A stretch of DNA of 64,000 nt from Gammaproteobacteria bacterium (GTDB lineage Bacteria > Pseudomonadota > Gammaproteobacteria > Acidiferrobacterales > Sulfurifustaceae): NCBI GenBank assembly GCA_029863005.1, contig JAOTWF010000002.1, forward strand, positions 1 to 64,000. Reading direction: 5' to 3'. The position numbers and the translations under genes are program-made. The notes under the pieces were generated by a model. The model made no database searches. It was not told where the DNA came from and saw only the letters and a list, made by a program, of their open reading frames with translations. Below are positions 20,801 through 42,248 of the stretch, in pieces (positions within the stretch are counted from its first letter, which is position 1; each line of letters starts with the position of its first letter).

Positions 20801-23015
20801 GCTGCCTGGCAGGAGCCGGAGCCGGTGAGCGATGCGCGCGCAATAATGCCGTGAGTTCGCGCCAGCGAGCATCTTTCGGTAAATCCTCGATGTCGAGCAT
20901 GATCCGGTATCGCCAGTTGGGTCGTTCGGTCGAGGTACCCGGTAAATTGACCTGGCGCCGCTGTCCCAGCACGTCCTCGAGCTGAACCAGCATGATTTTC
21001 GACGGGGCGTGGGCGAGATAATCGTGAATCGCGCACGCCAGTTTCGGCGTCATCTCCGGGCTCGAAACCGGATGTACGGTAAGACCAGCTGGCAGCAGTT
21101 TTTCGCGATCCAGTGCCAGCAGCAGACGTGCGCGATCTTCGGCGCGCGCGATCACCTGTCGGTTCCGGTCTGCCTCGGATGGATAATGATTGAGCGCCGC
21201 GCGTTCCACCAAGTCATCACCATGCCAAAAACCGGCCAAGGTCGGCAGATCATGAGTGCTGATGGCCACCAGGGCTTGTGCCGGGTAGGTTACCGGCAAC
21301 CGGAAGTCCCCCTTTTCATCTTTCTCAAAATACAGCAAACGGTAGGAAAGCACGCCGAGTGCCGCCAGCTTGGTGCGCACCTCTTCCGGAACGGTGCCCA
21401 GATCCTCGCCCACCACGAGACAGTTATTACGCTGGCTTTCGAGGGCGAGAATGCCCAGCAGATCATCGAAAGGATATTGCACATAGGTACCATCAGCCGG
21501 TCCACCCTCCTCCGGCACCCAGAACAAGCGCATGAGCCCCATGACATGATCGATGCGCAGAGCCCCACTGTTGCGCATGTTCGCGCGGAGAGTGGCGATG
21601 TAAGGCGCGTAGGCAGATTCTCGCAATTCGTCCGGATTCCACGGTGGCAACCCCCAATTTTGTCCGTTAAGGTTGTAATCATCTGGCGGTGCGCCGATGC
21701 TCACGCGTGCCACGTAAAGCAATTGGTTCGCCCAGGCCTCGGCGCCGGCACGGTCCACACTGATCGCGAGATCCTGGTAAAGGCCCACACCCAGTCGCAA
21801 CTCCATCGAGCGCCGGCCACAGGCGGCCAATTGTTCGTCGGCCTGCCATTGCAGGAATTGATAGAACTCGACGCGGTCCCGGTGCTCTTCGGCAAATTGT
21901 TTGACTTGAAGTGAACGCGGGTCTCGGTACGGCTCGGGCCATACCGGCCAGCCCCAGATTGATGGATCCTGTGAATGAAATTTTTCCTGCAAGGCCTCGT
22001 ACAATGCATGCCGGTGCAGCGCCTCGCCCTCGCGCTCGCAAAAGGCTGTGAAGGCACGGGCACGTTCCGTGCGACGTGCGGCATGCTGCGTGCGAAAATG
22101 TTCGAAAACCTCCTCCAGGACCGGCCACTTCATGGCCGCGACTCCGGGATAATCAACCAGTTCCGCCGCGCGCAGGGCCTGCAATCGCGCCTGGAAATCC
22201 GAGGCGGTAACTTTCCGCCGAGCCGGCTCGCACTCGGCGTACTCGGGAATCGCTTCGACATCTATATACAGAATGTTCAGGAACAACCGGCTCGAAGGAC
22301 TGTAGGGACTGGCATGTGGCGGATTGTGGGGAAACAGCGCGTGCAGCGGATTAAGCCCGATAACGTTGGCGCCGTTGGCGCCACATTCCTCGACGAGTCG
22401 GTATAAATCGGTGAAGTCGCCAATTCCCCAGTTGCGCCGCGAACGTACAGCGTACAGTTGCACCGCCGGTCCCCAGACTTTCCCATCGCCGCAAAGTGCG
22501 GGTGGCTGGAAACAGGCGTTGGGCGCCGCGATGAGCAACATGCTTGCGGTTTTTTCCCCGTGCCTCGCCTCGAAGCGGTGATAACCGGATGGCAGCGATT
22601 CCGTTAGTGTCAAACGGTATCGGGCGATGGCCGTGCCGTCGACGACATGCTCTTCCTGGTTTACCAGATCAGTTGGCTGAATTTTTCCCTGCACCATGCC
22701 TCCATCTTCGAGGTGCAATGTCCATTCAAATGCTGTACCGGACTGAGCCCGTGGCAGCATGATGTCGACACTCCACGATGTTGCCGCCGCACGCACCACC
22801 TGGCCCGGTGGCAGCAGACGTTGCCAAGCGCGTCGATCAAGCGCCGCCAGCGCCTCCTGCCGGTGCGCCTCATCTTCAGCGTGGATGCCGAGAGCCATGA
22901 GCAAGGCGCTCGCTGATTCCGGGGAGACAGTGTGTGTTTTGCCCCAGATATCGATGTAGGCAGTATCGATGCCAAAATCACGACAAAGACGTTCGAGCGT
23001 TTCCGGATCGTTCAT
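17865..23015 (-). CDS. Fusion of 4-alpha-glucanotransferase (MalQ) and malto-oligosyltrehalose synthase (TreY)
   Basis: N-terminal ~730 aa MalQ (NWGIGDFTDLYRLVEECG, RIDHVMGLMRLFW, VGEDLGTVPEEV). RSPAPAPARQRP linker. C-terminal ~980 aa TreY (TYRLQFHRDFTF, GSQHGYDIVDHN, DIVPNHMG, GLRIDHPDGLYDP). Start overlaps treZ stop (ATGA). Confidence 0.9.
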   Translation of the reverse strand: MNDPETLERLCRDFGIDTAYIDIWGKTHTVSPESASALLMALGIHAEDEAHRQEALAALDRRAWQRLLPPGQVVRAAATSWSVDIMLPRAQSGTAFEWTLHLEDGGMVQGKIQPTDLVNQEEHVVDGTAIARYRLTLTESLPSGYHRFEARHGEKTASMLLIAAPNACFQPPALCGDGKVWGPAVQLYAVRSRRNWGIGDFTDLYRLVEECGANGANVIGLNPLHALFPHNPPHASPYSPSSRLFLNILYIDVEAIPEYAECEPARRKVTASDFQARLQALRAAELVDYPGVAAMKWPVLEEVFEHFRTQHAARRTERARAFTAFCEREGEALHRHALYEALQEKFHSQDPSIWGWPVWPEPYRDPRSLQVKQFAEEHRDRVEFYQFLQWQADEQLAACGRRSMELRLGVGLYQDLAISVDRAGAEAWANQLLYVARVSIGAPPDDYNLNGQNWGLPPWNPDELRESAYAPYIATLRANMRNSGALRIDHVMGLMRLFWVPEEGGPADGTYVQYPFDDLLGILALESQRNNCLVVGEDLGTVPEEVRTKLAALGVLSYRLLYFEKDEKGDFRLPVTYPAQALVAISTHDLPTLAGFWHGDDLVERAALNHYPSEADRNRQVIARAEDRARLLLALDREKLLPAGLTVHPVSSPEMTPKLACAIHDYLAHAPSKIMLVQLEDVLGQRRQVNLPGTSTERPNWRYRIMLDIEDLPKDARWRELTALLRAHRSPAPAPARQRPAATALTATYRLQFHRDFTFIQAAAIVPYLHRLGISHCYASPYLKARAGSQHGYDIVDHNSLNPEVGSPEDFDRFVQALHEHGMGQVLDIVPNHMGVGGDDNHWWMDVLENGQSSAYADFFDIDWQPPKEDLRGKVLCPVLGDHYGKLLESGELKLVFEAEQGAFAVRYFQHRLPIDPHTFPLILHHDHMRLEQKLGPEHPLLSDYESLVTALRNLPQRSQTYETRIKERRRDKEAHKRRLAQLIRDHSDIRQFVEENVATFNGAGTEATRFDLLHELLEAQAFRLSYWRVASDEINYRRFFDINDLAGLRTENLEVFDATHRLIFEMISRGQVDGLRIDHPDGLYDPAQYYERLEQRLLALSGNAPSAEIASASRAETKPALFVVAEKILASHERLPDNWRVHGTTGYEFTNLVNGLFVYGPSEREMDRIYRRFAGNQPDLDDQLYECKKLVMRTALSSELHVLANYLDRISESDRHTRDFTHTAQRAALFEVVACFPVYRTYVTSESVTDEDRRYVDWAIAAAKRRSTAADVSIFDFIRRILLLEDLEGRSERYKRAVVEFTMRFQQFTSPVMAKGMEDTLFYRYNRLVSLNEVGADLRRFAVSPAAFHHANQERQRRWPNAMLSTSTHDTKRSEDVRARLNVLSEIPGEWREHLARWSRINRSKKRRLSTGWAPSQNDEYLFYQTLLGMWPPGQVNATQLESVRERIEAYMLKAIREAKAHTSWINPNKEYEEGVCDFVKGLLNSLERNLFLDDFQTLVHRIAPLGYLNGLSQTLLKLTSPGVPDIYQGCELFDLSLVDPDNRRPVDHFTRQRLLDEVISVAQTNVEKRPEQVHALLKTMEDGRAKLYLIWRVLMLRRHHPQWFTEGDYLPLSPEGEKIDHLCAFSRIHNDQAINVIVPRLLTRLITDNHSAPLGPAIWKDTRIEAPQIGHGYINVLTGEPVETVKREGKLFFTVSSLLSYFPVALLAPKNISK

Positions 23016-24862
23016 GCCCGACCTCCCCTACCGGCATCCAGGAACCACCATACCGACCATGGAGGCAAGGTATTATCAAAGTCGGTCGTTGTTCCGGATG
23101 GCAGATGATATAGCACTCTTTCGCCCGGCCGGGCGACATCTGTGATCGTTTGTTCTCCCATGTTGGCCAACAGGGTCAGCATGGTGCCGTCCGCCAGCTG
23201 CCAGTGGGCGCGCAAGCCGCGGTCGTCGAGCGTTTCATATTCAGCGTTTCTGGCCGGCAGGTTGCGCAACCACGGGACGATTTCGCGCGCGCGCAGGCCT
23301 AGCAATTCCCGGTGGAATCGAAACCAAGTCTGTGCCGTTTCGGTCCGTAAGCTTTCTCGATCAAGACGGGTGCGCAGAAAGGTCTTTTCGTCATTGGGGT
23401 CTGGAATGCGAGCACGTGCGTTTTCGTCGCTGAATTCGGGGAAGCGCGCGAACTCATTACGCCTTCCTTCCGTCACTGCGGTGGCCAGCTCGGGTCCGAA
23501 ATCACAGAAAAAAAGAAACGGTTGCGACGCTCCCCACTCTTGTCCCATGAACAGCAATGGTGGCGAAGGCGCCAGCAACAGGATTGCCGTGGCCGCGCGC
23601 ACTGCGTCTTCCGGCGCAATTCGGGTAATACGCTCGCCCATGGCGCGGTTGCCGATTTGGTCGTGATTCTGCAAGAAAGACACAAACGCCGTTGCCGGCA
23701 GATGGCGCGAAGTTTCTCCGCGACGCGCACCGTGACGGTAACGCGAAAGATCATCCTGGTAGGCGAAACCCTCGGTAAGACATCGACCCAGATGGTGCAC
23801 CGGATGGTCGGCAAAATCTTCGTAATATCCACCCTGCTCGCCGGTAGTCAGCACATGAAGCGCGTGATGGATGTCATCGTTCCACTGGGCGACGTACCAG
23901 CGCGGGTGATGAGCAACATCCCTCTCGAGATAACGCGCGGCGTTGTGTTCGTTTTCGAGCACCAGATGCACTTGGCGTGTAGCGCCCGGTCCGGTCAGTA
24001 TGGCTCGTGCAATGTCCTGTAGAATATCAGGCTGGGAATCGTCGATGATGGCATGCACCGCGTCCAGCCGCAGGCCATCGACGTGATACTCCTCGATCCA
24101 GTAAAGCGCATTGTGGATGAAAAAATCACGCACCGGAGCGCTGTCCGGTCCGTCAAAATTGATGGCAGCGCCCCACGGGGTGTGATGCCGGTCTGTAAAA
24201 AAGGCCGGGGCGTACAGATGCAGGAAATTACCATCCGGCCCGAAATGGTTGTAAACCACGTCGAGAAACACCATGAGCCCGCGCGCATGGGCGCTTTGGA
24301 CCAGGTCTTTGAGTTCTTCCGGCGTACCGTAAATGCTGTCCGGCGCGAACGGCAGCACACCGTCATATCCCCAGTTGCGCCGGCCGGGAAAATCTGAAAG
24401 CGGCATCAACTCGATGGCCGTGATGCCCAGATCGACCAGTTCATCAAGGCGCTGTTTCACGCCGGCATACGTGCCAGCTTCCGTGAATGTGCCGACGTGC
24501 AATTCATAGATCACGGCTTCTTCCCAGGGACGTCCGTGCCATGACGCATCTTTCCATTCCCATGCCTCGGGATCGACCGCCTGGGTGGGTCCGTGCACAT
24601 CCTGTGGCTGGAAGCGCGACACCGGATCGGGAACACGTTGACCGCCGTCGATGCGATAGCGGTACAGTGTTCCTTGTCTGGCGCGATCCGTGGTAATGCT
24701 GAACCAACCGTCTGCTTCCTTCTTCAGTGGCAACAAGGTTTCCTTGGATGAATCATCCAGGCACAAATCTACGGTGTGAGCGCCTGGCGCCCACAATCGG
24801 AAACGCCAGGTCCCGTCCGATTGGGGTTCGGCGCCAAAAGGCATGGAATGTCGTCGCTTCAC
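23012..24862 (-). CDS. treZ: Malto-oligosyltrehalose trehalohydrolase
   Basis: GH13 with N-terminal CBM48-like domain; VIYELHVGTFTEAGTYAG, DVVYNHFGPDGN, GLRLDAVHAI, NHDQIGNRAMGER. Confidence 0.92.
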   Translation of the reverse strand: MKRRHSMPFGAEPQSDGTWRFRLWAPGAHTVDLCLDDSSKETLLPLKKEADGWFSITTDRARQGTLYRYRIDGGQRVPDPVSRFQPQDVHGPTQAVDPEAWEWKDASWHGRPWEEAVIYELHVGTFTEAGTYAGVKQRLDELVDLGITAIELMPLSDFPGRRNWGYDGVLPFAPDSIYGTPEELKDLVQSAHARGLMVFLDVVYNHFGPDGNFLHLYAPAFFTDRHHTPWGAAINFDGPDSAPVRDFFIHNALYWIEEYHVDGLRLDAVHAIIDDSQPDILQDIARAILTGPGATRQVHLVLENEHNAARYLERDVAHHPRWYVAQWNDDIHHALHVLTTGEQGGYYEDFADHPVHHLGRCLTEGFAYQDDLSRYRHGARRGETSRHLPATAFVSFLQNHDQIGNRAMGERITRIAPEDAVRAATAILLLAPSPPLLFMGQEWGASQPFLFFCDFGPELATAVTEGRRNEFARFPEFSDENARARIPDPNDEKTFLRTRLDRESLRTETAQTWFRFHRELLGLRAREIVPWLRNLPARNAEYETLDDRGLRAHWQLADGTMLTLLANMGEQTITDVARPGERVLYHLPSGTTTDFDNTLPPWSVWWFLDAGRGGRA

Positions 24863-25983
24863 ACAGGCTCCGTGGTATGTTTCTCTCGCCGTTGTTCGAG
24901 TGCGGCCTGGAGCTTGTCGAACGGCTCGATGAATTTTTTTACTCCCTCATCTTCCAGTTGCTGTGCCACGGTTTCAAGGTCAATGCCATGTCTGGCCAAA
25001 CCGGCGATGGCATCGTCGGACTGTTTGAGTTCCTGCTCCAGACGCAATGCCGGATTGCCATGCTTGCGGTAGGCATTCAGCGTTTCCGGAGGCAGGGTAT
25101 TGACCGTATCGGGCCCGATCAGGGGCTCAACGTATTTTACGTCGCTGTAAGTCGGATCCTTGGTGCCAGTACTGGCCCACAACAGCCGCTGCGACTGTGC
25201 GCCTTGCCCGGCGAGCCGGTGCCAGCGCTCCGACTTTTCCATCTCATTCCAGATCTGGTAGGCACGGCGTGCATATGAAATTGCTGCCGTGCCGCGTAGA
25301 ACAGAAACAGATTTATCCTTGTTGCCGATCGCATCGAGGCGCTTGTCCACCAGCACATCGATACGGCTGAGGAAAAAGCTCGCCACCGAGGCCACCGAGG
25401 ACAATGGTATTCCCGCCTTCACGCGATCTTCCAGACCACTTAGCCAGACATCCAACACTTCACGATAGCGTGCCAGTCCGAACAACAATGTCACATTGAC
25501 ATTAACGCCCTTGGCGATGAGTTGCCTTACCGCCGGCAGCCCTTCCCGGGTGCCGGGGACTTTGATCATGATATTGGGCCGGTGCAGCCGTTCCCACAGT
25601 CGCACCGCTTCCTTCACGGTCTTGGCCGTGTCGTAGGCCAGGTGCGGCGAGACCTCGATGCTCACATAGCCATCGCGCCCCTTGCTGCTTTCATATACCG
25701 GCAGAAACAGGTCGGCCGCGTGCCCGATGTCTTCAAATACGATAGTTTCATACATTTCCGTGGCATTCTGGGCGCTGAGCGCCAGCCGGGCGATTTCCGC
25801 GTCGTAATCCTCGTGGCCGGTGATGGCCTTTTCAAAAATGGCCGGATTCGACGTTATGCCCGCCAATCCGTCACGCTTGATCAAGTGTGCCAGTTCTCCG
25901 CTTTCGAACATTCCACGCTCAATGTAGTCGAGCCAGATGCTCTGGCCCAGGGACCTGATGCGCAATAAGGGGTTGGTAGTCAT
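24859..25983 (-). CDS. tal: Transaldolase (longer ~370-aa type)
   Basis: IWLDYIERGM, GITSNPAIFEKAITGHEDYD, VSIEVSPHLAYDT, IMIKVPGTREGLPA, LLWASTGTKDPTYSD. Confidence 0.92.
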   Translation of the reverse strand: MTTNPLLRIRSLGQSIWLDYIERGMFESGELAHLIKRDGLAGITSNPAIFEKAITGHEDYDAEIARLALSAQNATEMYETIVFEDIGHAADLFLPVYESSKGRDGYVSIEVSPHLAYDTAKTVKEAVRLWERLHRPNIMIKVPGTREGLPAVRQLIAKGVNVNVTLLFGLARYREVLDVWLSGLEDRVKAGIPLSSVASVASFFLSRIDVLVDKRLDAIGNKDKSVSVLRGTAAISYARRAYQIWNEMEKSERWHRLAGQGAQSQRLLWASTGTKDPTYSDVKYVEPLIGPDTVNTLPPETLNAYRKHGNPALRLEQELKQSDDAIAGLARHGIDLETVAQQLEDEGVKKFIEPFDKLQAALEQRREKHTTEPV

Positions 25984-26004: not shown

Positions 26005-27297
26005 TCATGGCTTGCTCACGGTGACCGGCAGTCCCGAGGCAGACAGGCGCTGTTGGTTCAAAGAGAATGTCGCTTCGAAGGCGCTGAACAGATCCAGATA
26101 TTGCTCGATCAATCGGCTCATGAGAAACCGCTGGCGCACGGTTTCGCGCGCACGACGTCCGATTTCCCCCCGCCGCCCGGGATCCCGCAGCAGTTGTATA
26201 AGGCACTGCGCCGCCGTCTCTACGGAAGCAGCGAGGAAACCATTGATGCCTTCCTCGATCTGGTGGCGAATGCCGCCGCAATTACCCCCGACAACGGCGG
26301 CACCCTTCCACATCGCCTCCGTGACGGTAAGTCCGAATCCTTCACGTAGCGATTTCTGCATCACCACGGCGGCACGTCGCTGTAGCGCATTTACCAGCGC
26401 GCTGTCCTCGGCGGTGAGAATGATGATGCGCTCCTCCTTTCGGGACAGGAGAGATTCAAATACTTCTTGTCCTTCAGGATCATCGGTCGCCACGTTGCCC
26501 AGCAGCACCAAGGTGGCATCGACCTCCGTGCGTGCGAGATTAAATGCCTGGATCACCCCTTCCGGATCCTTCCAGTGGTCAAAGCGCGACACCTGGACCA
26601 CGATCGGCAGGTCATCGGGTATCCCATAGTGTTCGAGCCGGTCCTTGATCTCGGCGGCTCCCATCTCGGCGTTCTTGAGCGAGAACGGGTTGATGGCCGG
26701 CATGATCGACACCTGTGGCGGGGCGATGCGCTGCGCGTACTCGGGCAACGACAGGATTACCGCATCGTACTCATTAATGAAACCGCGCAGGTATTCCCAG
26801 ATCTCGGGATTGGGCTGCGAGAGATCGATATGGCAGCGCCACATCCAGGGACAGGTGCGACGGAAATGGCGAATGAGCGGCAGAGGCTGAGGATCGTGGA
26901 TCACCACCACGTCGTAGCCCGTCAGGTCCATGCGCAACGCATTCTGGACCACAATTTCTTCGTAGACCTCTTTCTTCAGCTCCGTGAGGTTGATCTTCGC
27001 GCCCTGCAGGGCGTTATGGATTTTCTTGGTTACGTTAAAAAAGTCAGGGCTTCCCTGGATAAGGCGCCAGTCGGCCTTGATCCCGAGGCTGCGCGCGAGC
27101 AGCGTGGCCGATGACAGCATCTCGGCCACGCCGCCGCCATAGAACGTCGAACTCAGGTGCAGCACACGCAGATCTCGCAGCCGGTGCGCTTTGTGCAGGA
27201 TCCGCTCCAAGACCTCGTCGCCGATCAGCGGCGCGTAGTCCTCGATGTTGACGTGCCAGGAGTGCTTTTTCACGGCGCAACGCCTCAATACGGCCAT
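26005..27297 (-). CDS. treT: Trehalose synthase, glycosyl-transferring TreT-like (GT4)
   Basis: [70 protein letters not shown] resemble archaeal TreT. GTG at 27273 is an alternative start that would avoid the xfp overlap. Confidence 0.8.
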
Positions 27298-29699
27298 TTC
27301 CAGTCGCGCACTTCGGGCATGTCCTGCCCGTGTCGTGCGATGTATTCGCGATGCCGGATGCGCTTGTCACGCATGCGCTGCTTTAGGTATGCGGCGCGGG
27401 ATCCGAGGGTCGGGACACGATCGATGACATCCGCTACCAAGTGGAAGCGATCGAGATCGTTGCGCACAACCATGTCGAACGGCGTCGATGTGGTGCCCTC
27501 CTCCTTGTATCCACGCACATGCAGATTGGGGTGGTTCGTACGCCGGTAGGTGAGGCGGTGGATCAGCCAGGGATAGCCGTGATACGCGAAGATGATCGGC
27601 TTGTCGGTGGTGAACAGCGTATCGAAATCCTTGTCCGACAGTCCGTGCGGATGCTCCTCGCGCGGCTGCAGTGTCATGAGATCGACCACGTTGACCACAC
27701 GCACCTTGAGATCGGGCTGGTGTTTGCGCAACAAGTCCACGGCGGCCAAAGTTTCCAGCGTGGGCACGTCGCCGGCGCAGGCCATGACCACGTCCGGATC
27801 TGCACCTTCGTCGTTGCTGGCCCACTCCCAGATGCCAATGCCCTTGGTGCAATGCGTCACGGCGGCGTCCATATCAAGCCATTGCGCCTCCGGCTGCTTG
27901 CCAGCCACAATCACGTTGATGAAGTCGCGCGAACGTAAGCACTTGTCGGTCACGTACAGGAGGCTGTTCGCATCTGGCGGCAGATACACTCGGATTACGT
28001 CCGCCTTCTTGTTGACCACATGATCGATGAATCCCGGATCCTGATGAGAAAAGCCGTTGTGATCCTGGCGCCAGACATGCGAGGTCAGCAGGTAATTAAG
28101 CGAAGCGATGGGTTGTCGCCACGGGATTTCGCGCGTGACCTTGAGCCATTTCGCGTGCTGGTTGAACATCGAATCGACGATGTGGATGAAAGCCTCGTAG
28201 CAGGAGAAAAAACCGTGCCGGCCGGTCAGGAGGTAGCCTTCCAACCAGCCTTGGCAGGTATGCTCGCTCAGTATTTCCATCACTCGGCCATCGGACGCGA
28301 GATGATCGTCTTCGGGCAGGGTATCGGCCAGCCAGGTGCGGCCAGTAACCTCCAGCAGTGCGCCTAGCCGGTTCGAAGCGGTTTCATCCGGCCCCATAAC
28401 ACGAAAATTACCCCGCTCCAGATTGAGCTTCATGACATCGCGCAGGAAATTTCCCATGACCCGAGTCGCCTCCGCCCGTGATTGACCCGGTTTAGGGACT
28501 TCCACGGCGTAGTCGCGAAAATCCGGCAGGCGCAAATCTTTCAGCAGGACACCGCCGTTGGCGTGCGGATTCGCGCCCATGCGCCGGGTCCCGGTCGGTG
28601 CCAGCTCCGCCAGTTCCGGCCGCAGCGCGCCGATATCATCGAACAGTTCCTCCGGGCGGTAGCTTTTCATCCACTGTTCCAGCAGATGGACATGTCCGGG
28701 TTTTTCCGCCATTTCGGAAAACGGCACCTGGTGTGAGCGCCAGGAGTCCTCGGTTTTCTTGCCGTCGACTTCCTTCGGCCCGGTCCAGCCCTTAGGCGAG
28801 CGCAAGATGATCATGGGCCAGCGCGGCCTTGTAACAGAACCGGTGGCGCGCGCCTGGGCCTGAATTGCCTTGATCTCACCAATGACTGTATCGAGGACGA
28901 GCGCCATCTGCTGATGCATGAGTTGCGGATCCGCGCCTTCGACAAAGTACGGTTTGTAACCGTAGCCGATGAAAAGACTTTCAAGCTCATCACGGCTGAT
29001 GCGCGCCAAGATGGTCGGATTCGCAATCTTGTAGCCGTTCAAATGCAGGATCGGCAGCACCGCCCCGTCATGTATCGGATTGAGAAATTTGTTCGAATGC
29101 CAGGCAGTTGCGAGCGGCCCGGTTTCGGCTTCGCCGTCACCGACCACACAGGCGACGATCAGATCCGGATTGTCAAAGGACGCACCGAAGGCGTGCGAAA
29201 TAGCGTAGCCGAGTTCACCGCCTTCATGGATAGAGCCGGGCGTTTCCGGTGCGACATGGCTCGGAATTCCACCCGGAAAGGAAAATTGCCGAAACAGTTT
29301 CTTCATTCCCTCGGCGTTTCGAGGAACATCCGGGTACACCTCACTGTAGGTTCCCTCGAGCCAGGTGTTTGCGACCAACCCGGGCCCGCCGTGACCGGGA
29401 CCGGTGATATAAATCATATTAAGATCATCCCTCTTGATGACACGGTTCAGATGCGCATAAATGAAATTGAGCCCCGGCGTGGTGCCCCAATGGCCCAGCA
29501 GCCGCGGTTTGATGTGCTCCAGCGTGAGCGGAACCCGGAGCATTGGGTTGTCGAGCAGGTAAATCTGCCCGACCGAGAGATAGTTGGCCGCGCGCCAGTA
29601 GGCATCGAGACGGCGCAGTTCACCGGAGGAAAGCGGCCCCTCGCTTTCCCCGCGGGAAGGTTTCATGCGCGCCGGAGTAGCCGTTGCGTGTTGTGTCAT
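27285..29699 (-). CDS. xfp: Xylulose-5-phosphate/fructose-6-phosphate phosphoketolase
   Basis: [75 protein letters not shown] before ATG at 29699. Confidence 0.95.
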
Positions 29700-29726
29700 G
29701 TTGCACCTCCATTGTCTGCAGCCCAA

Positions 29727-30857
29727 TCAGGATTCGGCGGTGGCGGCCAGTGCCGCTTGTGCCAGTATCCGGGCTTCGTTGACAGGAATCACCCAAATCT
29801 CCGCGCGGCTGTCCGCGCGGCTGATAAGTTGTTCGTTGCCGGCGATGAAGGCATTTTTCCCGGGATCGAGACGGATGCCGGCCCATTTCATATTCTCGAA
29901 AATCCGCGCACGGATCTCTGGGGCATTCTCACCCACGCCTCCGCCGATCAGGACTGCATCCACACCGCCGAGCACGGCTATGTACGCCCCGATGTATTTC
30001 CGGATTCGGTAGCAATAGAGATCCACCGCCCGCTGCGCCCGGGGATCGCCGGATTCAAGCAATTCGCGCATGTCGCCGCTGAGCCCGGAGACGCCCAGCA
30101 AACCGGAGGCGTCATTGAGCAGGCGCTCGGTGTCCTGCGGCGAAAGGTTTTCCCGTTGCTGCAGGTGGGTGATTAGCCCTGCATCGATATCGCCACTGCG
30201 GGTGGCCATGACCAGCCCCTCTAGGGGCGAGAAACCCATGGAGGTGTCCTTCACGCCGTCCTTGTCCGTGGCCGTGATCGAGCATCCCGCGCCGAGCTGA
30301 AGCGAAATGATGCGTTGTTCATGCGCGGCACCGGAGCGCCGTTCCCGCCAGCGGCGCCACATAGCCTCATGCGCCAGGCCGTGAAAACCATAACGACGCA
30401 AGTGATGCCGTTCTGTCATCTCGGCTGGAAGTGCGTAGATTCGTGCCACTTCCGGAAGCCGTGCGTAATAGGCTGTATCGAAAACGGCCACCTGTTTTAC
30501 CGCAGATCCCAAAGTTTCGCGACAGGCACGCATCCATTGCAAGGCTGCCGGATTATGCAATGGCGCGAGCGGCGCGAGTCTGTCAATTTCCGCTTCCACC
30601 TCGGGGTTGATCAAAGTGGGGAATTGCAAGTTGTCACCACCGTGCACCACGCGGTGCGCGACAAGAGCGAATCCGGAGAGAGCGTGCGTCTGAATAAACT
30701 GACGCAATACTTCCGTTGCTTCCGTTGCCTTGTCCGAACTCGACTCATGACGCGCATATGCTATCTGCTCCATCCGGTTTTCCGCTGCTGTTTCAAAGGC
30801 AACGAGACGGATGGACGAACTCCCGGCATTGACCGTCAGAATCTTCACCTTCTGCAT
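29727..30857 (-). CDS. ackA: Acetate kinase
   Basis: ILTVNAGSSSIRLV, AHRVVHGGD, FDTAYYARLPEVARIYALP, RRYGFHGLAHE, DTSMGFSPLEGL. GTG at 30848 has a better-spaced SD (AAGGA) and may be the real start. Confidence 0.92.
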   Translation of the reverse strand: MQKVKILTVNAGSSSIRLVAFETAAENRMEQIAYARHESSSDKATEATEVLRQFIQTHALSGFALVAHRVVHGGDNLQFPTLINPEVEAEIDRLAPLAPLHNPAALQWMRACRETLGSAVKQVAVFDTAYYARLPEVARIYALPAEMTERHHLRRYGFHGLAHEAMWRRWRERRSGAAHEQRIISLQLGAGCSITATDKDGVKDTSMGFSPLEGLVMATRSGDIDAGLITHLQQRENLSPQDTERLLNDASGLLGVSGLSGDMRELLESGDPRAQRAVDLYCYRIRKYIGAYIAVLGGVDAVLIGGGVGENAPEIRARIFENMKWAGIRLDPGKNAFIAGNEQLISRADSRAEIWVIPVNEARILAQAALAATAES

Positions 30858-30907
30858 TCCTTGGTGCGCCGCCACATATGCCGTGTGCTTTCGTCAGGCT
30901 AAAAAAC

Positions 30908-30913
30908 ACTATA
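30908..30913 (-). promoter_or_regulatory. Predicted -10 element (TATAGT) of the ackA operon promoter
   Basis: TATAGT on the minus strand; FNR-box centre 28.5 bp from its first base, giving a predicted site centre near -40.5. Confidence 0.65.
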
Positions 30914-30934
30914 CCGCGGCTGTTTTACGGGTTC

Positions 30935-30948
30935 TTGATATCGATCAA
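30935..30948 (-). promoter_or_regulatory. FNR/ANR-type binding site
   Basis: TTGATATCGATCAA, a perfect TTGAT-N4-ATCAA palindrome. Confidence 0.8.
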
Positions 30949-31717: not shown

Positions 31718-33856
31718 TTATGTCGGGGTGCCGGGATCCATTTCACGCATGAGCACGAAGGAACGACCCTGCAATGGATAGGTGTGCGTGCCTTCAAATG
31801 TTCCGTCGCGCGCGAGCCCGGCTTCATGGCTGGTATCCAGCTCCGTCTTCCACAGCTTGCCCGGATGATAGGCCGGCAAAACGAATCCTATTTCGTCATG
31901 GTGAGCGTTGATGAGAAGCAGGAAGTTGGCGTCCGAGATGGGTTGGCCGCGGTCGTCATATTCATTCAGTCCAGCGCCGGCGAGCAACAGACCCAAACAA
32001 CGGGCAAATGACTGCTGCCATTCCTCGTCGGTCATTTCGTTCCCGTCGGGCTTGAGCCAGACGATGTCTTTGATTTCGCTGCCACGAATCTGACGTCCTT
32101 GAAAGAAAGAACGACGTCGGAACACGGGATGTCGCTGAAGAATTTGGATGATACGACGCGTGAATTCAATCAGTTGGCGGTCATCCGGCTTGAGGTTCCA
32201 ATCGATCCAGTTGAGTTCATTGTCCTGGCAATAGGCATTGTTGTTGCCGCCTTGAGTGCGTCCCATCTCGTCCCCCGCCAGCAGCATGGGTACACCTTGT
32301 GAGAAGAAAAGCGTCGCCAGAAAATTGCGCTTTTGCTGGGCGCGCAGCGCCTTGATCGCCGGGTCATCGGTCGGACCTTCGACCCCGCAATTCCAGGACA
32401 GATTGTGATCGTGGCCGTCACGGTTGTTCTCGCCGTTTGCCTCGTTGTGCTTGTCGTTGTAACTGACCAAGTCGTGCAGCGTGAATCCGTCATGCGCTGT
32501 TATAAAGTTGATGGAGGCGTACGGCCGGCGGCCGCTGTGGCCGTACAGGTCGCTGGAGCCGGTGAGGCGATAAGCCAGCTCGCCGATCACGCCGCCCTCG
32601 CCTTTCCAGTAGGCGCGCACCACGTCCCGGTATTTGCCGTTCCATTCGGTCCAGCCTACGGGGAAATTACCGACCTGGTATCCGCCCTCACCCAGGTCCC
32701 AGGGTTCCGCGATGAGCTTCACCTGCGACAGCACCGGATCCTGGTGGATAATGTCGAAAAAGGCGGACAGTCGGTTAACCTCGTGCAGCTCGCGCGCCAG
32801 CGCCGAGGCAAGATCGAATCGAAACCCGTCCACATGCATCTCAAGTACCCAGTAACGCAAACTGTCCATGATGATCTGCAATACACGTGGGTGCTGCATA
32901 TTGAGCGTGTTGCCGCAGCCGGTGAAATCGACGTAATAGCGCGGATCGGTCGCACTCAGGCGGTAATAGGATTCATTGTCGATGCCGCGGAAAGAAAGCG
33001 TGGGCCCCAGTTGGTTGCCTTCGGCGGTGTGGTTGTACACCACATCAAGAATGACCTCGATGCCGTTCGAGTGCAACGTCTTGACCATGGTCTTGAATTC
33101 GCTGATGCGACCGGTAGCCGAATAGCGCATGTCCGGAGCCAGGAAACCGATCGAATTGTACCCCCAGAAATTCCGTAATCCCTTTTCCACGAGGTTTCGT
33201 TCGTCCACGAAGGCGTGAACCGGCATGAGCTCGACGGCCGTGATGCCGAGATGTTTGAGATGCCGGATTACCGGCTCGGTGGCGAGCCCGGCATAAGTTC
33301 CGCGCAGGGGCGCCGGCACCTGTGGATGATTCTGCGTGAACCCTTTGACGTGCAGTTCATAAATAATGGTCTCGTGCCACGGCGTGCGTGGCGGTTTGTC
33401 ACCGCCCCACGTGAAGGCCGGGTCGATGACCCTGCACTTTGGCACGCCTGGCGCGTTGTTGCTGCGGTCGAACGACAGATCTTCCTGTTTGTGGCCCACG
33501 CGGTAACCGAAATCCGCGTTACTCCATTTGACCTGACCGACGATCGACTTTGCATAGGGATCGAGCAGCAACTTATTGTGATTGAAGCGTTTTCCTTTTT
33601 TGGGTTCGTAAGGCCCGTAAACTCGATAGCCGTATAACAACCCGGGTCGCGCGTCGGGCAAATAGCAGTGCCAAACCAGGTCAGTCTGCCAGGATAAGGC
33701 AATGCGCGTGATTTCGCGATTCCCCTTGGCTTCGAACAGGCACAATTCCACTTTCTCGGCGTGCTCGCTGAACAATGCGAAATTCACCCCTTCGCCATCC
33801 CAGGTGGCGCCCAAGGGATAAGGTCCACCCGGCCAGACCGGCATATTATTGTTCAT
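31718..33856 (-). CDS. glgX: Glycogen debranching enzyme GlgX
   Basis: GH13 with N-terminal CBM48; [88 protein letters not shown]. Confidence 0.94.
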
Positions 33857-33962
33857 GGACTAATCATCCTATTTTCATTCTTCAACGGCCAAATTCGGGC
33901 CGACACACAGGACACCGGCACTTACCCCAGCCTCTATACATGGCTGAATACGCCTTATCGTT

Positions 33963-34646
33963 TTATTTATCGTCAGAAGACCCCTTTTTCGGCCACCAGC
34001 GCGCGAGCAGATCGCCCGCGGTCTTTTGCCCGCCGATCCCGAAGGCCAGCGCCAGCGCCAAGACAACACCGGCCAGCAAAACCATAAAGGTCTGGCGTAT
34101 GATGTCAGTTACCACGTTCACCTGGTCAAGCGCGATGAGTACGACAAAAACCATGATGGCGTATTGCGCGATGCGGCCAAGAAGTTCTGCATCTTCCATT
34201 CCCACGTTCTTGCTGTAGGCGGAAACCAACTGGGAAATGAAACGGGCGAAATACAAGCCCACCGCCAGGATCAACACCGCTACGACGACCTTGGGAATGA
34301 AGAGCACGATCTGGCTCACCAGTTCGGTGACATAGGTCAGGCCCAGACTGTTGAAGGCGACCATCAGCGTCAGCAGGATCACCAGCCAGTATCCTAGGAT
34401 GCCCAGGACACCGGCCATACCGGCTTGAATACCGCCTTGGCGCAGAAAGCCGTCGATGCCGGCCTTTTCCGTGAGCACGTGGAAATTGATGGTCTGCAAA
34501 CCCTTGACCACCACCAGTTTGACGAATTTCGCCAACAGCCAACCGGCGACAAGAATTATAATTGCCAACAACAGTCTCGGCAAAAAAACTCCCAATTGCG
34601 CGAGAAAGGCCCGTGCCGGCTCGAGCGCCAAATTTACCTGTTCCAT
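33963..34646 (-). CDS. MscS-type TM-helix repeat membrane protein without a recognisable beta domain
   Basis: Repeated TM helices (PRLLLAIIILVAGWLLAKFVKLVV; VVVAVLILAVGLYFARFISQLV; VLALALAFGIGGQKTAGDLL), 227 aa only. Confidence 0.7.
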   Translation of the reverse strand: MEQVNLALEPARAFLAQLGVFLPRLLLAIIILVAGWLLAKFVKLVVVKGLQTINFHVLTEKAGIDGFLRQGGIQAGMAGVLGILGYWLVILLTLMVAFNSLGLTYVTELVSQIVLFIPKVVVAVLILAVGLYFARFISQLVSAYSKNVGMEDAELLGRIAQYAIMVFVVLIALDQVNVVTDIIRQTFMVLLAGVVLALALAFGIGGQKTAGDLLARWWPKKGSSDDK

Positions 34647-34773
34647 AGGTCCTCCTTTATGACATCGAAAAAAAACACGGCAGCCATCGTTACGCCGCCC
34701 CCACTTACCATATCATCACGGGAGAAAGCTTTATATTAAACCGTGCACGCCACACCCGTCCGGCAGCATCGTT

Positions 34774-37700
34774 TCATTCCAGCAGGCTTGATATCCCCAT
34801 CAGCGGGATACGTGCCCACGAGGGACGGTTGTTCAGCTCGTAGCGCAACTCATAAAATGCTTTTTCAAGCATAAATAGTCTTAACAACCCGCGCGCCTGA
34901 TCCCAGTCAGAATAGATCCCAGCAATCCGCACATGCGCCTCATAGGATTGCAAGAATGTGCGGGCGACCTCGGTTTCCCATTCATGGATCACCGTTTCGA
35001 CCTGCACGGAATCCTCCGATTGTTCGGCGGTTATGTGCGACGCGGCGGTATAGGCCGCATAATTGAACGAACGCAGCATGCCCGCGACATCCCGCAACGG
35101 AGAATGTTTGCGAAGCCGTTCGTCCAGCGAACGCGCCGGCTCGCCCTCGAAATCAATAATGACAAAATCATTCTGCCGCAACAGCACCTGGCCGAGATGA
35201 TAATCTCCGTGATAGCGGGTTTTCAGGGACTCCAGACCCTCGGGGACGCATTCCTCGATCCAGTCATGAACGATTTTGCGCCGCTCGATGAGCGACGCTG
35301 CCATCACCCGCATATCATCGGTAAGCGAATCGAGACGCTCCTCGAGCAGCCCAAGCGTGGCGTCCGCCTCTTCACGCAGACGATGTTTCCAATCGGTTAT
35401 TTCACGTTTGCCGACGGGCTCAGGTTCGAAGGCCGGGTCACCCGTGGACATGGCCAGGGCCCGGTGCAATTCGCCCGTTCGCTGACCGAGCACCTGTATT
35501 AGATTGAGAAAACCCCCGTGCACCTCGATCGATGATACGGATGTTTCAGCAGGTCCCCGATGCTCCTCCAGGAAACGTTCCAGGTAATTCAGCGTGTAGG
35601 TCCAGCCATCGCCCTGGTTCTCGACAAATCCCTGAAGGACAGCCAGGGTCATCAAGCCGCCATCATTGGCCACGTATTCCACGGCGCCCGCGACTGGCAC
35701 GATGTTTGGAAATTGCGCCACCTCGGTCAGGAAGCGGCCGACCTCCACCTCCGGGCTCTCTCCGGATTGCAAACGACGGAACGCCTTGAGAAACAGCCGA
35801 TTGCCAATCACGATAGCGGTGTTGCTGCCTTGCGCAGCGGATGGGCGAACCGTCAGTTCGTTTATGTCATCGCCGGCCAATTCGCGGAAGGCTTTCGTGG
35901 GCACGAAACGGATCGTCCCGGCCGTGCCGGCCAGCTCACGTCCGGTCCCGATGGCTTCCACCATGGCGCGGCAAAACATTTCATCTGCCAGGGCATCGCC
36001 CATGATGCCGATGCGCGCCTGCTGACGTACCCGCGCCAAGCTCGCCGGTAACAATCCTCGCTGGCGTTCTTCTGGTTCGTGCTCCCAGACCAGTGACAGC
36101 GGTAAGAAGTAGATTGATTGATCGCCAGCGCCGCCTTCGATGCGGTACAGCGATATAAACCAGCTATTGGAATCCATCTCCCAGACAACATGTTCGATCA
36201 ATACGGCACGCGTCATCGGTTCGCCCTTGGCGGCGAACCAGCGCTGCGCCGCCATAAAGTGGGGCAAGACATTGTTTTCTAGCTGGATGCGGACTTTATC
36301 GGCCATGCCGATGCGCCAGGGGACTACGCGCTCACGGAAGAAACTGCTCCAGCCATCGAACAGCACCAATAACGGCAGCTCTTCGCGCGGCAGACGTTCC
36401 TCGTGCCAGGACGGTACTTCCTCACCCTTGGCAAGTCGGAACCAGTAAAAACCATGGCCATGCAGGGTGAGCAGATACGGGAGTTCGCCGATTGGCGGGA
36501 ACGCCGTGCGACCCATCATTTCCACCGGTACGCAGCCTTTATACTTGCCCAGATCGAGCTCCACCGGTTGCGCCGAGCGTGCCAGATTGGCCACGCACAG
36601 AATGGTTTCGTTTTCGTACTCGCGCAGAAATGCCAGGATTTTTCGATTGCCCGGTTTGAGAAAATGCAAGGCCCCGCGACCGAAGGCTTGGTGGCTCTTG
36701 CGCACGCTGAGCAAACGCTTCATCCAATTAAGCAATGATGAGGGATCGCGAGACTGCGCCTCCACATTCACGGCCTCGAACCCGTATACCGGATCCATGA
36801 TGGGGGGAAGGAACAAGCGCTGAGGATCGGCATGGGAAAAACCGGCGTTACGGTCGGGGCTCCACTGCATGGGCGTGCGCACACCGTTGCGATCACCCAA
36901 ATAAATATTGTCCCCCATGCCAATTTCATCACCATAATAAAGAATGGGAGAACCCGGCATCGACAGGAGCAGACTGTTCATGAGTCGAATTTTTTCGAAA
37001 TCGTTGTCCATGAGTGGTGCCAGTCGGCGGCGGATACCGAGATTCAGACGTGAGCGGGGGTCGGCGGCGTACATGCGGTACATGTAATCGCGCTCCTTGT
37101 TAGTCACCATTTCAAGTGTAAGCTCGTCATGATTGCGCAAGAAAATCGCCCACTGGCAGTTTTCAGGTATCTCCGGCGTCTGGTTCATGATTTCCACGAT
37201 GGGATGACGGTCCTCCTGGCCGATGGCCATGTACATGCGTGGCATCAAGGGAAAGTGGTAGGCCATATGACACTCGTCACCGGAACCGAAATAGTCACGC
37301 ACATCCTCCGGCCACTGATTGGCCTCGGCCAGGAACATTCGGTTCTTGTAATGATTGTCGATCACGGATCGCATCTGCTTGATGACGGCGTGCGTCTCGG
37401 GGAGGTTCTCATTATTGGTGCCCTCGCGCACGCACAGGTAGGGAATCGCGTCGAGGCGCAGCCCGTCCACGCCCTGATCCAGCCAAAATTGCATGACCTT
37501 GGTGACTGCTTTCACCACCTGGGGATTATTGTGGTTAAGATCAGGCTGATGTGAGAAAAAGCGATGCCAATAATAGGACTTGGCCGTATCGTCCCAGGCC
37601 CAGTTGGATTTCTCGGTGTCGGAAAAAATAATACGTGTATCTTCATATTTCTTGACGGTATCGCTCCACACGTAGAAATTACGCTTGGGCGAACCGGGCG

Positions 37701-38085
37701 GCGCCTTGCGTGCCGCCTGGAACCACGGGTGCTGGTCCGAGGTATGGTTGATGACGAGTTCGGTGATGACTCGCAGACCGCGCTCGTGCGCCGCCTTCAC
37801 GAAGACCTGAAAATCCTTGCGCGTGCCGTATTCAGGATGGATATTCCGGTAGTCGGAAATATCATAGCCGTCGTCGCGCATGGGCGACGGATAAAACGGC
37901 AGGATCCACAACGTGTTGACACCCAGTTGCTGCAAATAATCGAGCTTTGAGGTCAGTCCCGCAAAGTCACCGATACCGTCATTATTGCTGTCGCAAAATG
38001 CCTTGACGTGAATCTCATAAACGACGGCATCCTTGTACCAGAGCGGATCGTCGATGAGGATTTCGTGGCGGCGTTCACTGGTCAT
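34774..38085 (-). CDS. treS: Maltose alpha-D-glucosyltransferase (TreS) fused to maltokinase (Mak/Pep2)
   Basis: N-terminal GH13 TreS ([39 protein letters not shown]); C-terminal kinase ([25 protein letters not shown]). Confidence 0.93.
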
Positions 38086-38097
38086 GCGCTTTACACT

Positions 38098-40110
38098 TTA
38101 CATGTAGTAGTCAAAATCATGTTCGGTATGCACGCGGCGGCGCAGGCGGAAGATATGCGCCGGCACGGTTTGCGGGTCGAGTTCGACGTAATTGCGAACT
38201 CCGTTCCAGATGTAGCGCCCCCCCGTCAGCAAGTCATGCACCTGGTACGGCTGCTCGCTCGGCAGGCCCAGTGTATCGAGCGGCAATTCAACCCAGCCCG
38301 ATTGCCGGTGATGCGGGTCGAGGTTGACGACTACCAGGATGATGTCGCCCAGATCCTCAGTGGTCTTGCTGTAACAGATCAGTTTGTCATTGTCGACGGG
38401 ATAGAACTGCAGCCCCCGGTCGCTCTGCAATGCCGGATTCTCGTGGCGAATGCGGTTCACGCGAGTGATGAAATCGCGCAGGCTGTCGGGCCGATCCAGA
38501 TTCCAGCGACGCAACTGGTATTTTTCCGAATCCAGATATTCTTCGCTGCCGGGCTCACGCGCACGGCTCTCAGACAGTTCGTACGCCGGGCCGTAAATGC
38601 CGTAATTCGCCGCCAGCGTTCCCGCCAACACCAGTCGTATCATGAATGCCGGCCGGCCCCCAAACTGAAGGTATTCATTGAGGATGTCGGGTGTGTTGGG
38701 CCATACGTGCGGGCGAAAATACTCACGCCCTTCGGATTGGGTGAGCTCGGTGAAGTATTCGGTCAGTTCCTGCTTGGTGTTGCGCCATGTGAAGTAGGTG
38801 TATGACCAGGTGAACCCGAGCTTGGCCAGACGGTGCATGACCTTGGGACGGGTAAAGGCCTCGGCCAGAAACAAGACGTCGGGATGGGCGCGCTTGATGT
38901 CGGCGATGGCCCATTCCCAGAATGGGAACGCCTTGGTATGCGGGTTGTCGACGCGGAATATCTGCACGCCCTGCTCGATCCAGAAATCGAAGATGCTTTT
39001 CAGCTCGCGCCAGAGCTCCTGCCAGGATTCGCCCTCGAAATCGAAGGGGTAGATGTCTTGGTATTTCTTCGGTGGATTCTCGGCATATTGCACACTGCCG
39101 TCCGGCCGGCGGCGGAACCACTCCGGATGCTCCTTTACGTACGGATGATCCGGTGAACACTGGTAAGCGATATCCAAGGCGATTTCCATTCCAAGTTCTT
39201 TGGCCTTATTCACGAACCAGCGGAAATCGTCGAGCGTGCCGAGTTGTGGGTGCACAGCCTTGTGACCGCCCTCTTTTGCACCAATCGCCCAAGGGCTGCC
39301 GACGTCTTCCGGCTTGGCGGTCAAGACGTTGTTGGGCCCCTTGCGGAATGACTGGCCGACGGGATGAATCGGCGGCAGATAAACCACATTAAATCCCAGG
39401 GAAGCAGCGTAACGCAGGCGTTCTTCGCAATCACGGAAGCCGGCATGCTTGTCGCCGTCGCAGGAGCGCGGAAAAAATTCGTACCAGGAGCTGTAACGAG
39501 CGCGCTCGCGGTCAACTTCCAACATTAATTCTTTGTCATAACGGGTGACAAAGCGGCGTTCGGCGTGGCGCCCCATCAACTTCGCGGTCTCTTCATCCAA
39601 GGCCACGCGGCGTTTTTCCGTCAAAGCAGCGCCACCGCTGAGCGTGCGCGCAAGCGCGTTCAGACGTTCCGCGTCTTTCCCGGTGATGTTCGCGGCGGCT
39701 TTTTTGACAAGCTCGGAACCGGTCAGAAAGACCATTTTCAAATCCGGATCGGTGTCCGGCCGACGCTCCAAGTCGTGACACCAGGACTGGTAGTGATCAA
39801 CCCAAGCCACGATCGTGTAGCGGTAACGACCGACCTCGGTCACTTGAAAAGTGGCGTGCCAGCGATCATTGACCAGGGGGACCATGGGAACTTCGGTCCA
39901 TTCGTGGGAGGTCTCGCGCCGGTAGAGCAACAGGCTTGCGAGCTTATCGTGCCCGTCGACGAACACGTCCGCCTCGATCGTCACCGGCTCACCGACACTA
40001 CGCTTGATGGGATAGCGACCATTGTCAACTTCAGGACGCACGCCTTCGATCACCACTCGGCTTTGCCCGTCGGTGGAAATTGGCGATGGGGGAACCCGGG
40101 TTTTAGCCAT
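38098..40110 (-). CDS. glgE: Alpha-1,4-glucan:maltose-1-phosphate maltosyltransferase
   Basis: RYSSWYEFFPRSC, GFNVVYLPPIHPVGQSFRKGPNN, FRVDNPHTKAFPFWEW, FLAEAFTRPKVM. Confidence 0.94.
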   Translation of the reverse strand: MAKTRVPPSPISTDGQSRVVIEGVRPEVDNGRYPIKRSVGEPVTIEADVFVDGHDKLASLLLYRRETSHEWTEVPMVPLVNDRWHATFQVTEVGRYRYTIVAWVDHYQSWCHDLERRPDTDPDLKMVFLTGSELVKKAAANITGKDAERLNALARTLSGGAALTEKRRVALDEETAKLMGRHAERRFVTRYDKELMLEVDRERARYSSWYEFFPRSCDGDKHAGFRDCEERLRYAASLGFNVVYLPPIHPVGQSFRKGPNNVLTAKPEDVGSPWAIGAKEGGHKAVHPQLGTLDDFRWFVNKAKELGMEIALDIAYQCSPDHPYVKEHPEWFRRRPDGSVQYAENPPKKYQDIYPFDFEGESWQELWRELKSIFDFWIEQGVQIFRVDNPHTKAFPFWEWAIADIKRAHPDVLFLAEAFTRPKVMHRLAKLGFTWSYTYFTWRNTKQELTEYFTELTQSEGREYFRPHVWPNTPDILNEYLQFGGRPAFMIRLVLAGTLAANYGIYGPAYELSESRAREPGSEEYLDSEKYQLRRWNLDRPDSLRDFITRVNRIRHENPALQSDRGLQFYPVDNDKLICYSKTTEDLGDIILVVVNLDPHHRQSGWVELPLDTLGLPSEQPYQVHDLLTGGRYIWNGVRNYVELDPQTVPAHIFRLRRRVHTEHDFDYYM

Positions 40111-40120
40111 GAACTGGCGC

Positions 40121-42088
40121 TCAGCGATCAGGCGCACTCGGCGCCTTCAAGTAAACGATGCTCAGGGGCGGCAAAGTCAACGAGATCGAATGATAGCGGC
40201 CATGGCACGGGACTGGCGCGGACTCTACGCCCCCCACGTTCCCCTGACCGCTACCGCCATAGATCGTGGCATCGCTGTTCAAGATTTCACGCCAATAGCC
40301 ACTGCGCGAAACCCCAATGCGATAATTGGCTTGTGGGACCGGCGTGAAATTGCAAACGACCAACACCACGTCCTCCGGCTTCTCGCCCTTGCGGAAAAAA
40401 CTGATGATACTGTGTTCCCAGTCGTGCAGGTCCGCCCACTCGAAACCGCTCGAATCAAAGTCACGCGCGTACAGTGCTGGCTCGCGCCGGTACGTATGGT
40501 TGAGATCTTTCATCCAGCGCTGAACCCCCTGATGCGGAGCCTGCTCGAGAAGATGCCAGTCCAGGCTCTGATCGTGGTTCCATTCGCGCCATTGCCCGAA
40601 TTCGCTGCCCATGAACAGGAGTTTCTTTCCCGGATGGCCGTACAGGTAACCGAACAGGCATCGCAGATTGGCGAACTTCTGCCAGTCGTCGCCCGGCATT
40701 TTCCCGAGGAGCGAACCCTTGCCATGCACCACTTCGTCATGCGAGAACGGCAATACGAAGTTTTCATGAAACGCATACATGATGCTGAAAGTGAGCTGGT
40801 TGTGGTGATATTTCCGGTGGATCGGGTCGTGCGAGAAATAATCCAGCGTGTCGTGCATCCAGCCCATGTTCCACTTCATGCCGAATCCCAGCCCTCCGAG
40901 ATAGTTCGGACGCGAGACCATAGGCCAGGAGGTCGATTCCTCGGCGATGGTCTGCGTGTCAGGGTGATCGCGGTACACAGCCTCGTTCAGATCGCGCAGA
41001 AACTGGATCGCGTCGATGTTTTCCCTGCCGCCGAATTCATTCGGTATCCATTCACCTTGGCGGCGCGCGTAATCGAGATACAGTATTGACGCGACGGCGT
41101 CGACCCGCAGTCCGTCGGCGTGGTATTTGTCGAGCCAGAAGAGCGCACTCGAAGTCAGAATCGAACGCACTTCGTTGCGGCCATAATTGAAGATGCTCGA
41201 ATTCCATTCCGGGTGGAAACCGCGTTTGGGATCGGCATGCTCGAACAAATATGTACCGTCGAAGTACACGAGCCCGTGCTCGTCTGTGGGAAAGTGCGAT
41301 GGCACCCAGTCGAGGATGACGCCGACACCACCCTGGTGCAGGCGATCGACCAGATGCATGAATTCCTGCGGGGTACCGTAACGTGCCGTGGGCGCGAAGT
41401 AACCCGTGGTTTGGTAGCCCCAGGAGCCGTAGAACGGGTGTTCCGTGACCGGAAGAAACTCCACATGGGTGAAACCCATGTCTCGAACGTACTCGGTCAG
41501 TTGTGAGGCGTGCTCGCGGTAGTGGAAGGAGCGGTTGCCCTCGTTCGGGACGCGCTTCCACGACCCGAGATGAGTTTCGTAGGTGGACATGGGGGCATTC
41601 AACGCGTTGACCTTGCTCCGCTCCTGCATCCACATCTGGTCTCCCCACTGGAAATCCAGGTCCCACACGATCGAGGCGGTGCGAGGCGGTGTTTCGGTAT
41701 GCAGGGCAAAGGGATCGGTCTTCTCAACTTGGTAATTCCGGTGATGGGAGGTCAGGTGATATTTATATTTTGCCCCGCGGGTCACTCCAGGAATGAATCC
41801 CTCCCAGATTCCCGAATCATCCATGCGCGCCGTTAATAGATGCGAATTGGACCGCCAGCCGTTGAAATCGCCGACAACGGCCACTTGACGGGCATTGGGT
41901 GCCCAGACCGCGAAATAGACACCGGCGACGCCATTGACGACATGCAGGTGTGCTCCGAGCTTGTCATACAGACGGAAATTCCTGCCTTCCTTGAACAGGT
42001 AAATGTCGTGCTCTGTCAGCAGGCTGACACCATTTTGAACGGGTTGGACATCGACAGATTTTATGTCTTTCGTCCGCGTTGTCGCCAT
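40121..42088 (-). CDS. glgB: 1,4-alpha-glucan branching enzyme
   Basis: [73 protein letters not shown] before ATG at 42088. Confidence 0.95.
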
Positions 42089-42248
42089 AAAGAGCCTCCT
42101 GGCTACCGCCACTTAGACCGGTTAATTACTCGGCTTGTTGGTCCGCCGGTTGTTGCTGCACAATGCTCACGCAATAAATCAGCGGTGGTTTCAAGTGATG
42201 CAAGATGTTCGGTTGTTGCGATGAGTCAGATTATTGTCACCGTGCTTT

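Follow-up and report, generated by a model that had tools for sequence, protein, structure and literature searches.

A conserved FNR-family box in predicted class II geometry upstream of the acetate kinase-phosphoketolase genes of a gammaproteobacterium

Introduction

Control of the phosphoketolase-acetate kinase pair by an FNR-family regulator is already known from rhizobia, where the regulator is FixK2. In Bradyrhizobium diazoefficiens, bll2518-bll2517 encodes this enzyme pair and carries a putative FixK2 box, and its expression was 10-fold lower in a fixK2 deletion strain at 0.5% oxygen (PMC9104804). The searched part of a comparative study of alphaproteobacteria places phosphoketolase, together with Hsp20, in a FixK regulon predicted from conserved boxes (PMC2908626), and the searched part of a study of R. 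palustris TIE-1 gives Rpal_1869 as a FixK target whose expression is altered in a fixK mutant under some conditions (PMC3050613). The ETxSR recognition helix reads TTGAT, and class II FNR sites are centered at about −41.5 (PMC7349173). No paper describing ackA-xfp as an FNR/ANR target outside the alphaproteobacteria was found in the openly licensed literature.

Here we analyze a 64,000-nucleotide stretch of gammaproteobacterial DNA, referred to as the window. An initial annotation had proposed that a perfect FNR/ANR box in this window drives an operon running from ackA to malQ::treY and that this operon is induced when oxygen is low.

Results

Direct reading of the sequence bore out both the perfect box and the TATAGT −10 element upstream of ackA. 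The FNR/ANR/DNR-type box, TTGATCGATATCAA, matches TTGAT-N4-ATCAA at 30935 to 30948 on the minus strand (center 30941.5) and is separated by a gap of 21 bp from TATAGT (30913 to 30908, minus strand), which puts its center 28.5 bp from where the −10 hexamer begins. With this hexamer taken as −12 to −7, the box center falls at −40.5 and the predicted transcription start (+1) at 30901 on the minus strand, so that the proposed class II spacing was also recovered. A promoter search recognized no −35/−10 pair of the sigma-70 type around the box. This speaks against an ordinary sigma-70 promoter with a −35 element, and a missing −35 is what is expected at an activator-dependent class II promoter.

The likely start codon of ackA is GTG 30848, where homology begins and which has a Shine-Dalgarno sequence, AAGGA (30858 to 30862, minus strand), 9 nt upstream; GTG 30875 is a longer, mechanically called start. 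The predicted ackA leader is about 53 nt. We also considered whether the box might serve another gene, and this was rejected: the plus strand downstream holds only the 3′ end of a DUF1622 gene, in antisense, which leaves ackA as the sole sensible target. The ackA box is the only perfect TTGAT-N4-ATCAA site in the window, and the two further matches, with one mismatch each, are at chance level. As read from the sequence, these features support a box of the FNR family arranged as at class II promoters.

We placed this site in its genomic context by pattern searches and retrieved stretches of sequence. The 2.45-Mb genome contains 22 perfect TTGAT-N4-ATCAA sites, and the motif written backwards, used as a control, gave 0. 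Spacers of 0 to 16 yielded 83 sites in total, 61 of them from the 16 non-N4 spacers together (about 3.8 each), so that the excess at N4 (22 versus about 3.8) has a Poisson P value of about 1e−10. When TAnnnT hexamers were counted to either side of the 22 boxes, moving away from each (n = 44), they peaked 33 to 38 bases from the start of the box (2, 2, 6, 3, 5, and 1 of 44), giving 19 over these six offsets versus mostly 0 to 2 per offset elsewhere. This clustering matches class II geometry. Many boxes are intergenic and precede genes such as those for a universal stress protein, a COX1-family oxidase, Hsp20, a ribose-phosphate pyrophosphokinase, a proton pyrophosphatase, and a divergent FNR. 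The spacer excess, the hexamer peak, and the intergenic boxes have the look of a working FNR-family regulon.

At a separate locus of the same genome (L023, G000:C115:9400-19500), three perfect boxes at 2981, 3594, and 7048, all inside a stretch of about 4 kb, adjoin genes for Hsp20, ribose-phosphate pyrophosphokinase, and a phosphoribosyltransferase. Its content is similar in kind to the predicted FixK regulon (Hsp20) and to Bradyrhizobium FixK2 targets (thymidine phosphorylase-family and MBL-fold proteins), and the locus may form a second low-oxygen cluster, one with ties to phosphoribosyl metabolism.

Conservation of the ackA box was assessed in 13 genomes from six genera of the same order, all carrying this ackA subfamily. 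A box with no more than one mismatch lies within 150 bp upstream of ackA in 8 of the 13 genomes and 4 of the 6 genera, five of these eight genomes being from one genus and hence not independent. Six of the eight boxes are perfect. Over the same 13 upstream regions, permuted half-sites gave 0 in 18 of 19 cases and 1 in the remaining case, and other spacers gave 0 or 1. In the five genomes of one other genus (G024, G029, G033, G037, and G043), a TATCGT element follows the box after exactly the gap of 21 bp seen in the window, and box and gap are kept though the flanks have diverged; ackA itself is only about 57% identical. The gap is 22 bp in G010, where the −10 is TATAAG, and G023 has the box with a −10 that is not clear-cut. 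Apart from the ackA box, the stretches of about 19 kb read from G023 and the five genomes of that other genus contain no site with one mismatch or fewer, and a 9-kb stretch of G010 holds one extra site of this quality.

These data bear on whether the palindrome is a functionless match, as might be suspected of a 10-base motif for which about 4 perfect sites are expected by chance in the genome. Against this, equal spacing is kept in diverged promoters, and the box occurs in 8/13 regions versus at most 1/13 for permuted half-sites. We consider a chance match to be highly improbable and reject it on the spacer, permuted half-site, and conservation controls. The palindrome is very probably a true binding site for a predicted oxygen-sensing activator of the FNR family.

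The expectation that orthologous ackA-xfp promoters would share the box held for these eight genomes and failed for others. No box was found close upstream of ackA in G004, G007, and G008, which belong to the same genus as the window and have ackA-xfp in another gene context, so box control of ackA-xfp is not universal. No box was found upstream of ackA in G013 and G019 either. In G004, G007, G008, and G013, ackA overlaps the preceding same-strand gene or lies within about 105 bp of it, and ackA may be expressed from elsewhere in these genomes. For G004, we rejected a long operon that begins upstream and is driven from a distant box: the nearest perfect box is >10 kb upstream of ackA, with other genes and strands between. 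In G019, ackA lies downstream of phosphoribosyl-type genes; here (L193, G019:C248, 2827-12191 reversed) thymidine phosphorylase-like and PRPP synthetase-like genes are followed by ackA, and xfp and tal lie beyond it, in another, boxless arrangement of the same gene set.

The genome encodes four strong CRP/FNR proteins. One of them, L005, is an FNR/ANR orthologue: it has the CKNCTLQELC motif plus a fourth cysteine, its recognition helix reads ETVSR, it scores above the NCBIfam Fnr cutoff, and its nearest solved relative is an FNR. L006 is a divergent FNR that lacks the cysteine motif HPC of FNR; its own start is preceded, 90 bp upstream, by a perfect box. L008 is DNR-like, with Pseudomonas aeruginosa DNR (3dkw) as its best solved match (E value of 3e−45), and L007, also of a CRP type, differs in its recognition helix. 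The genes for L006 and L008 lie on contig C46 (G000:C46:4340-7793), separated by about 3 kb, and the box before L006, near the DNR-like gene, makes a cascade from FNR to FNR/DNR possible. Elsewhere in the genome (L009, G000:C110:4810-7911), genes whose sequences resemble those for NirF and an Lrp-type heme d1 biosynthesis protein suggest nitrite reduction, which fits a DNR-bearing denitrifier.

The ackA box might instead be read mainly by the DNR-like, NO-sensing L008 or by the divergent L006, and the operon would then respond to NO or denitrification, or through a cascade, and not directly to oxygen. The pairing of L006 and L008 on one contig is consistent with this, as is the description, in the searched part of the alphaproteobacterial study, of FNR, FixK, and DNR sites as closely alike (PMC2908626). 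The motif fits FNR/ANR, a divergent FNR, or DNR alike, and so the box does not by itself name the acting regulator. Pointing the other way, an FNR/ANR orthologue is present in 13/13 genomes compared, with the other paralogues variable, and the same part of that study places phosphoketolase in the FixK and not the DNR regulon. We regard a DNR-like or divergent reader as rather unlikely. The box is probably a functional class II activator site at which an FNR-family protein, most likely the four-cysteine FNR/ANR orthologue, would switch on ackA-xfp.

In the window, six minus-strand genes form the predicted operon: ackA (acetate kinase, 29727 to 30848), xfp (phosphoketolase, 27285 to 29726), treT (trehalose synthase-type glycosyltransferase, 26005 to 27297), tal (transaldolase, 24859 to 25983), treZ (malto-oligosyltrehalose trehalohydrolase, 23012 to 24862), and a malQ::treY fusion (4-alpha-glucanotransferase plus malto-oligosyltrehalose synthase, 17865 to 23015), the last assigned by a match to NF011077 above the cutoff. 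The genes after ackA-xfp follow on the same strand with short overlaps or gaps and scant room for promoters. In the relatives with the box, ackA-xfp is present and treT, treZ, and malQ::treY were not found alongside it in the regions read; tal lies beside ackA-xfp only in G007, a boxless genome. These trehalose-free loci do not support a conserved phosphoketolase-trehalose regulon. As judged from these comparisons, the conserved element is the ackA-xfp promoter and not its link to treT, tal, treZ, and malQ::treY. Of the proposal that the box drives the whole operon, the part concerning the ackA-xfp promoter is supported by sequence and comparison, and a conserved regulated unit that includes the trehalose genes is not established.

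Control could accordingly be limited to ackA-xfp, with treT-tal-treZ-malQ::treY having their own expression or being mere neighbors, as the relatives' loci would allow. The overlapping or nearly contiguous genes on one strand argue otherwise, as does the absence of any internal promoter or terminator within the operon scoring above shuffled sequences, and we think such a limit improbable.

Upstream, on the same strand (31718 to 42112), are genes for a glgX-like protein, a mechanosensitive-channel-like protein, a treS-maltokinase fusion, glgE, and glgB. By gene content these are a GlgE-pathway locus adjoining the ackA-xfp operon, which makes the neighborhood a glycogen/trehalose locus. In loci L066 and L077 (Bacterium BMS3Bbin08, a Nitrospirales contig; locus start), treT lies directly 5′ of xfp, so a treT-phosphoketolase link also exists outside this lineage.

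Discussion

We infer FNR-family binding, an oxygen response, co-transcription, and a physiological role from sequence and gene order. As oxygen falls, an FNR-family dimer would bind with its center at about −40.5, substitute for the missing −35, and recruit RNA polymerase to TATAGT, and ackA-xfp would be switched on. Acetate kinase could then form ATP, without respiration, from the acetyl phosphate that phosphoketolase produces. The transcript probably continues into treT-tal-treZ-malQ::treY, and sugar derived from glycogen or trehalose could supply the phosphoketolase route. More tentatively, and on balance doubtfully, a single oxygen-responsive, FNR-family-controlled transcript might lead from glycogen through malto-oligosaccharides and trehalose (MalQ-TreY, TreZ, and a reversible TreT) to phosphoketolase and acetate kinase, yielding ATP without respiration. 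This trehalose/glycogen extension is not seen in the relatives examined; the downstream genes offer a hypothesis for fermentation of a storage polymer once oxygen is gone.

In lineages mostly known from assembled genomes, the conserved site is predicted to tie the phosphoketolase-acetate kinase route to low oxygen. Very probably it is a further example, in another lineage, of the control described in rhizobia and is ordinary in kind. Taken with FixK2 control in rhizobia, it suggests widespread regulation of this enzyme pair by FNR-family proteins.

The closest described system, bll2518-bll2517, has the same enzyme pair, a related box, and an activator of the CRP/FNR family, which is predicted for the window. 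The two differ in gene order (xfp-ackA in Bradyrhizobium, ackA-xfp here) and in the box, which is imperfect in Bradyrhizobium (TTGACCTCACGCAA) and perfect in the window. FixK2 is under the control of FixLJ and of the oxidation of a single cysteine, not of an FNR-type cluster, and bll2518-bll2517 is a predicted operon without trehalose genes. The predicted FixK regulon (PMC2908626), which lists phosphoketolase, and the FixK target Rpal_1869 (PMC3050613) are also comparable with the window; they are alphaproteobacterial and involve another regulator subgroup, and the searched text of these two sources does not mention acetate kinase. In its TTGAT-N4-ATCAA box, weak or absent −35, and four-cysteine FNR, the window resembles E. 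coli-type class II FNR promoters and the ANR/DNR boxes of P. aeruginosa, with the difference that E. coli-type class II sites lie near −41.5 and the window box, measured from the predicted start, is centered at −40.5.
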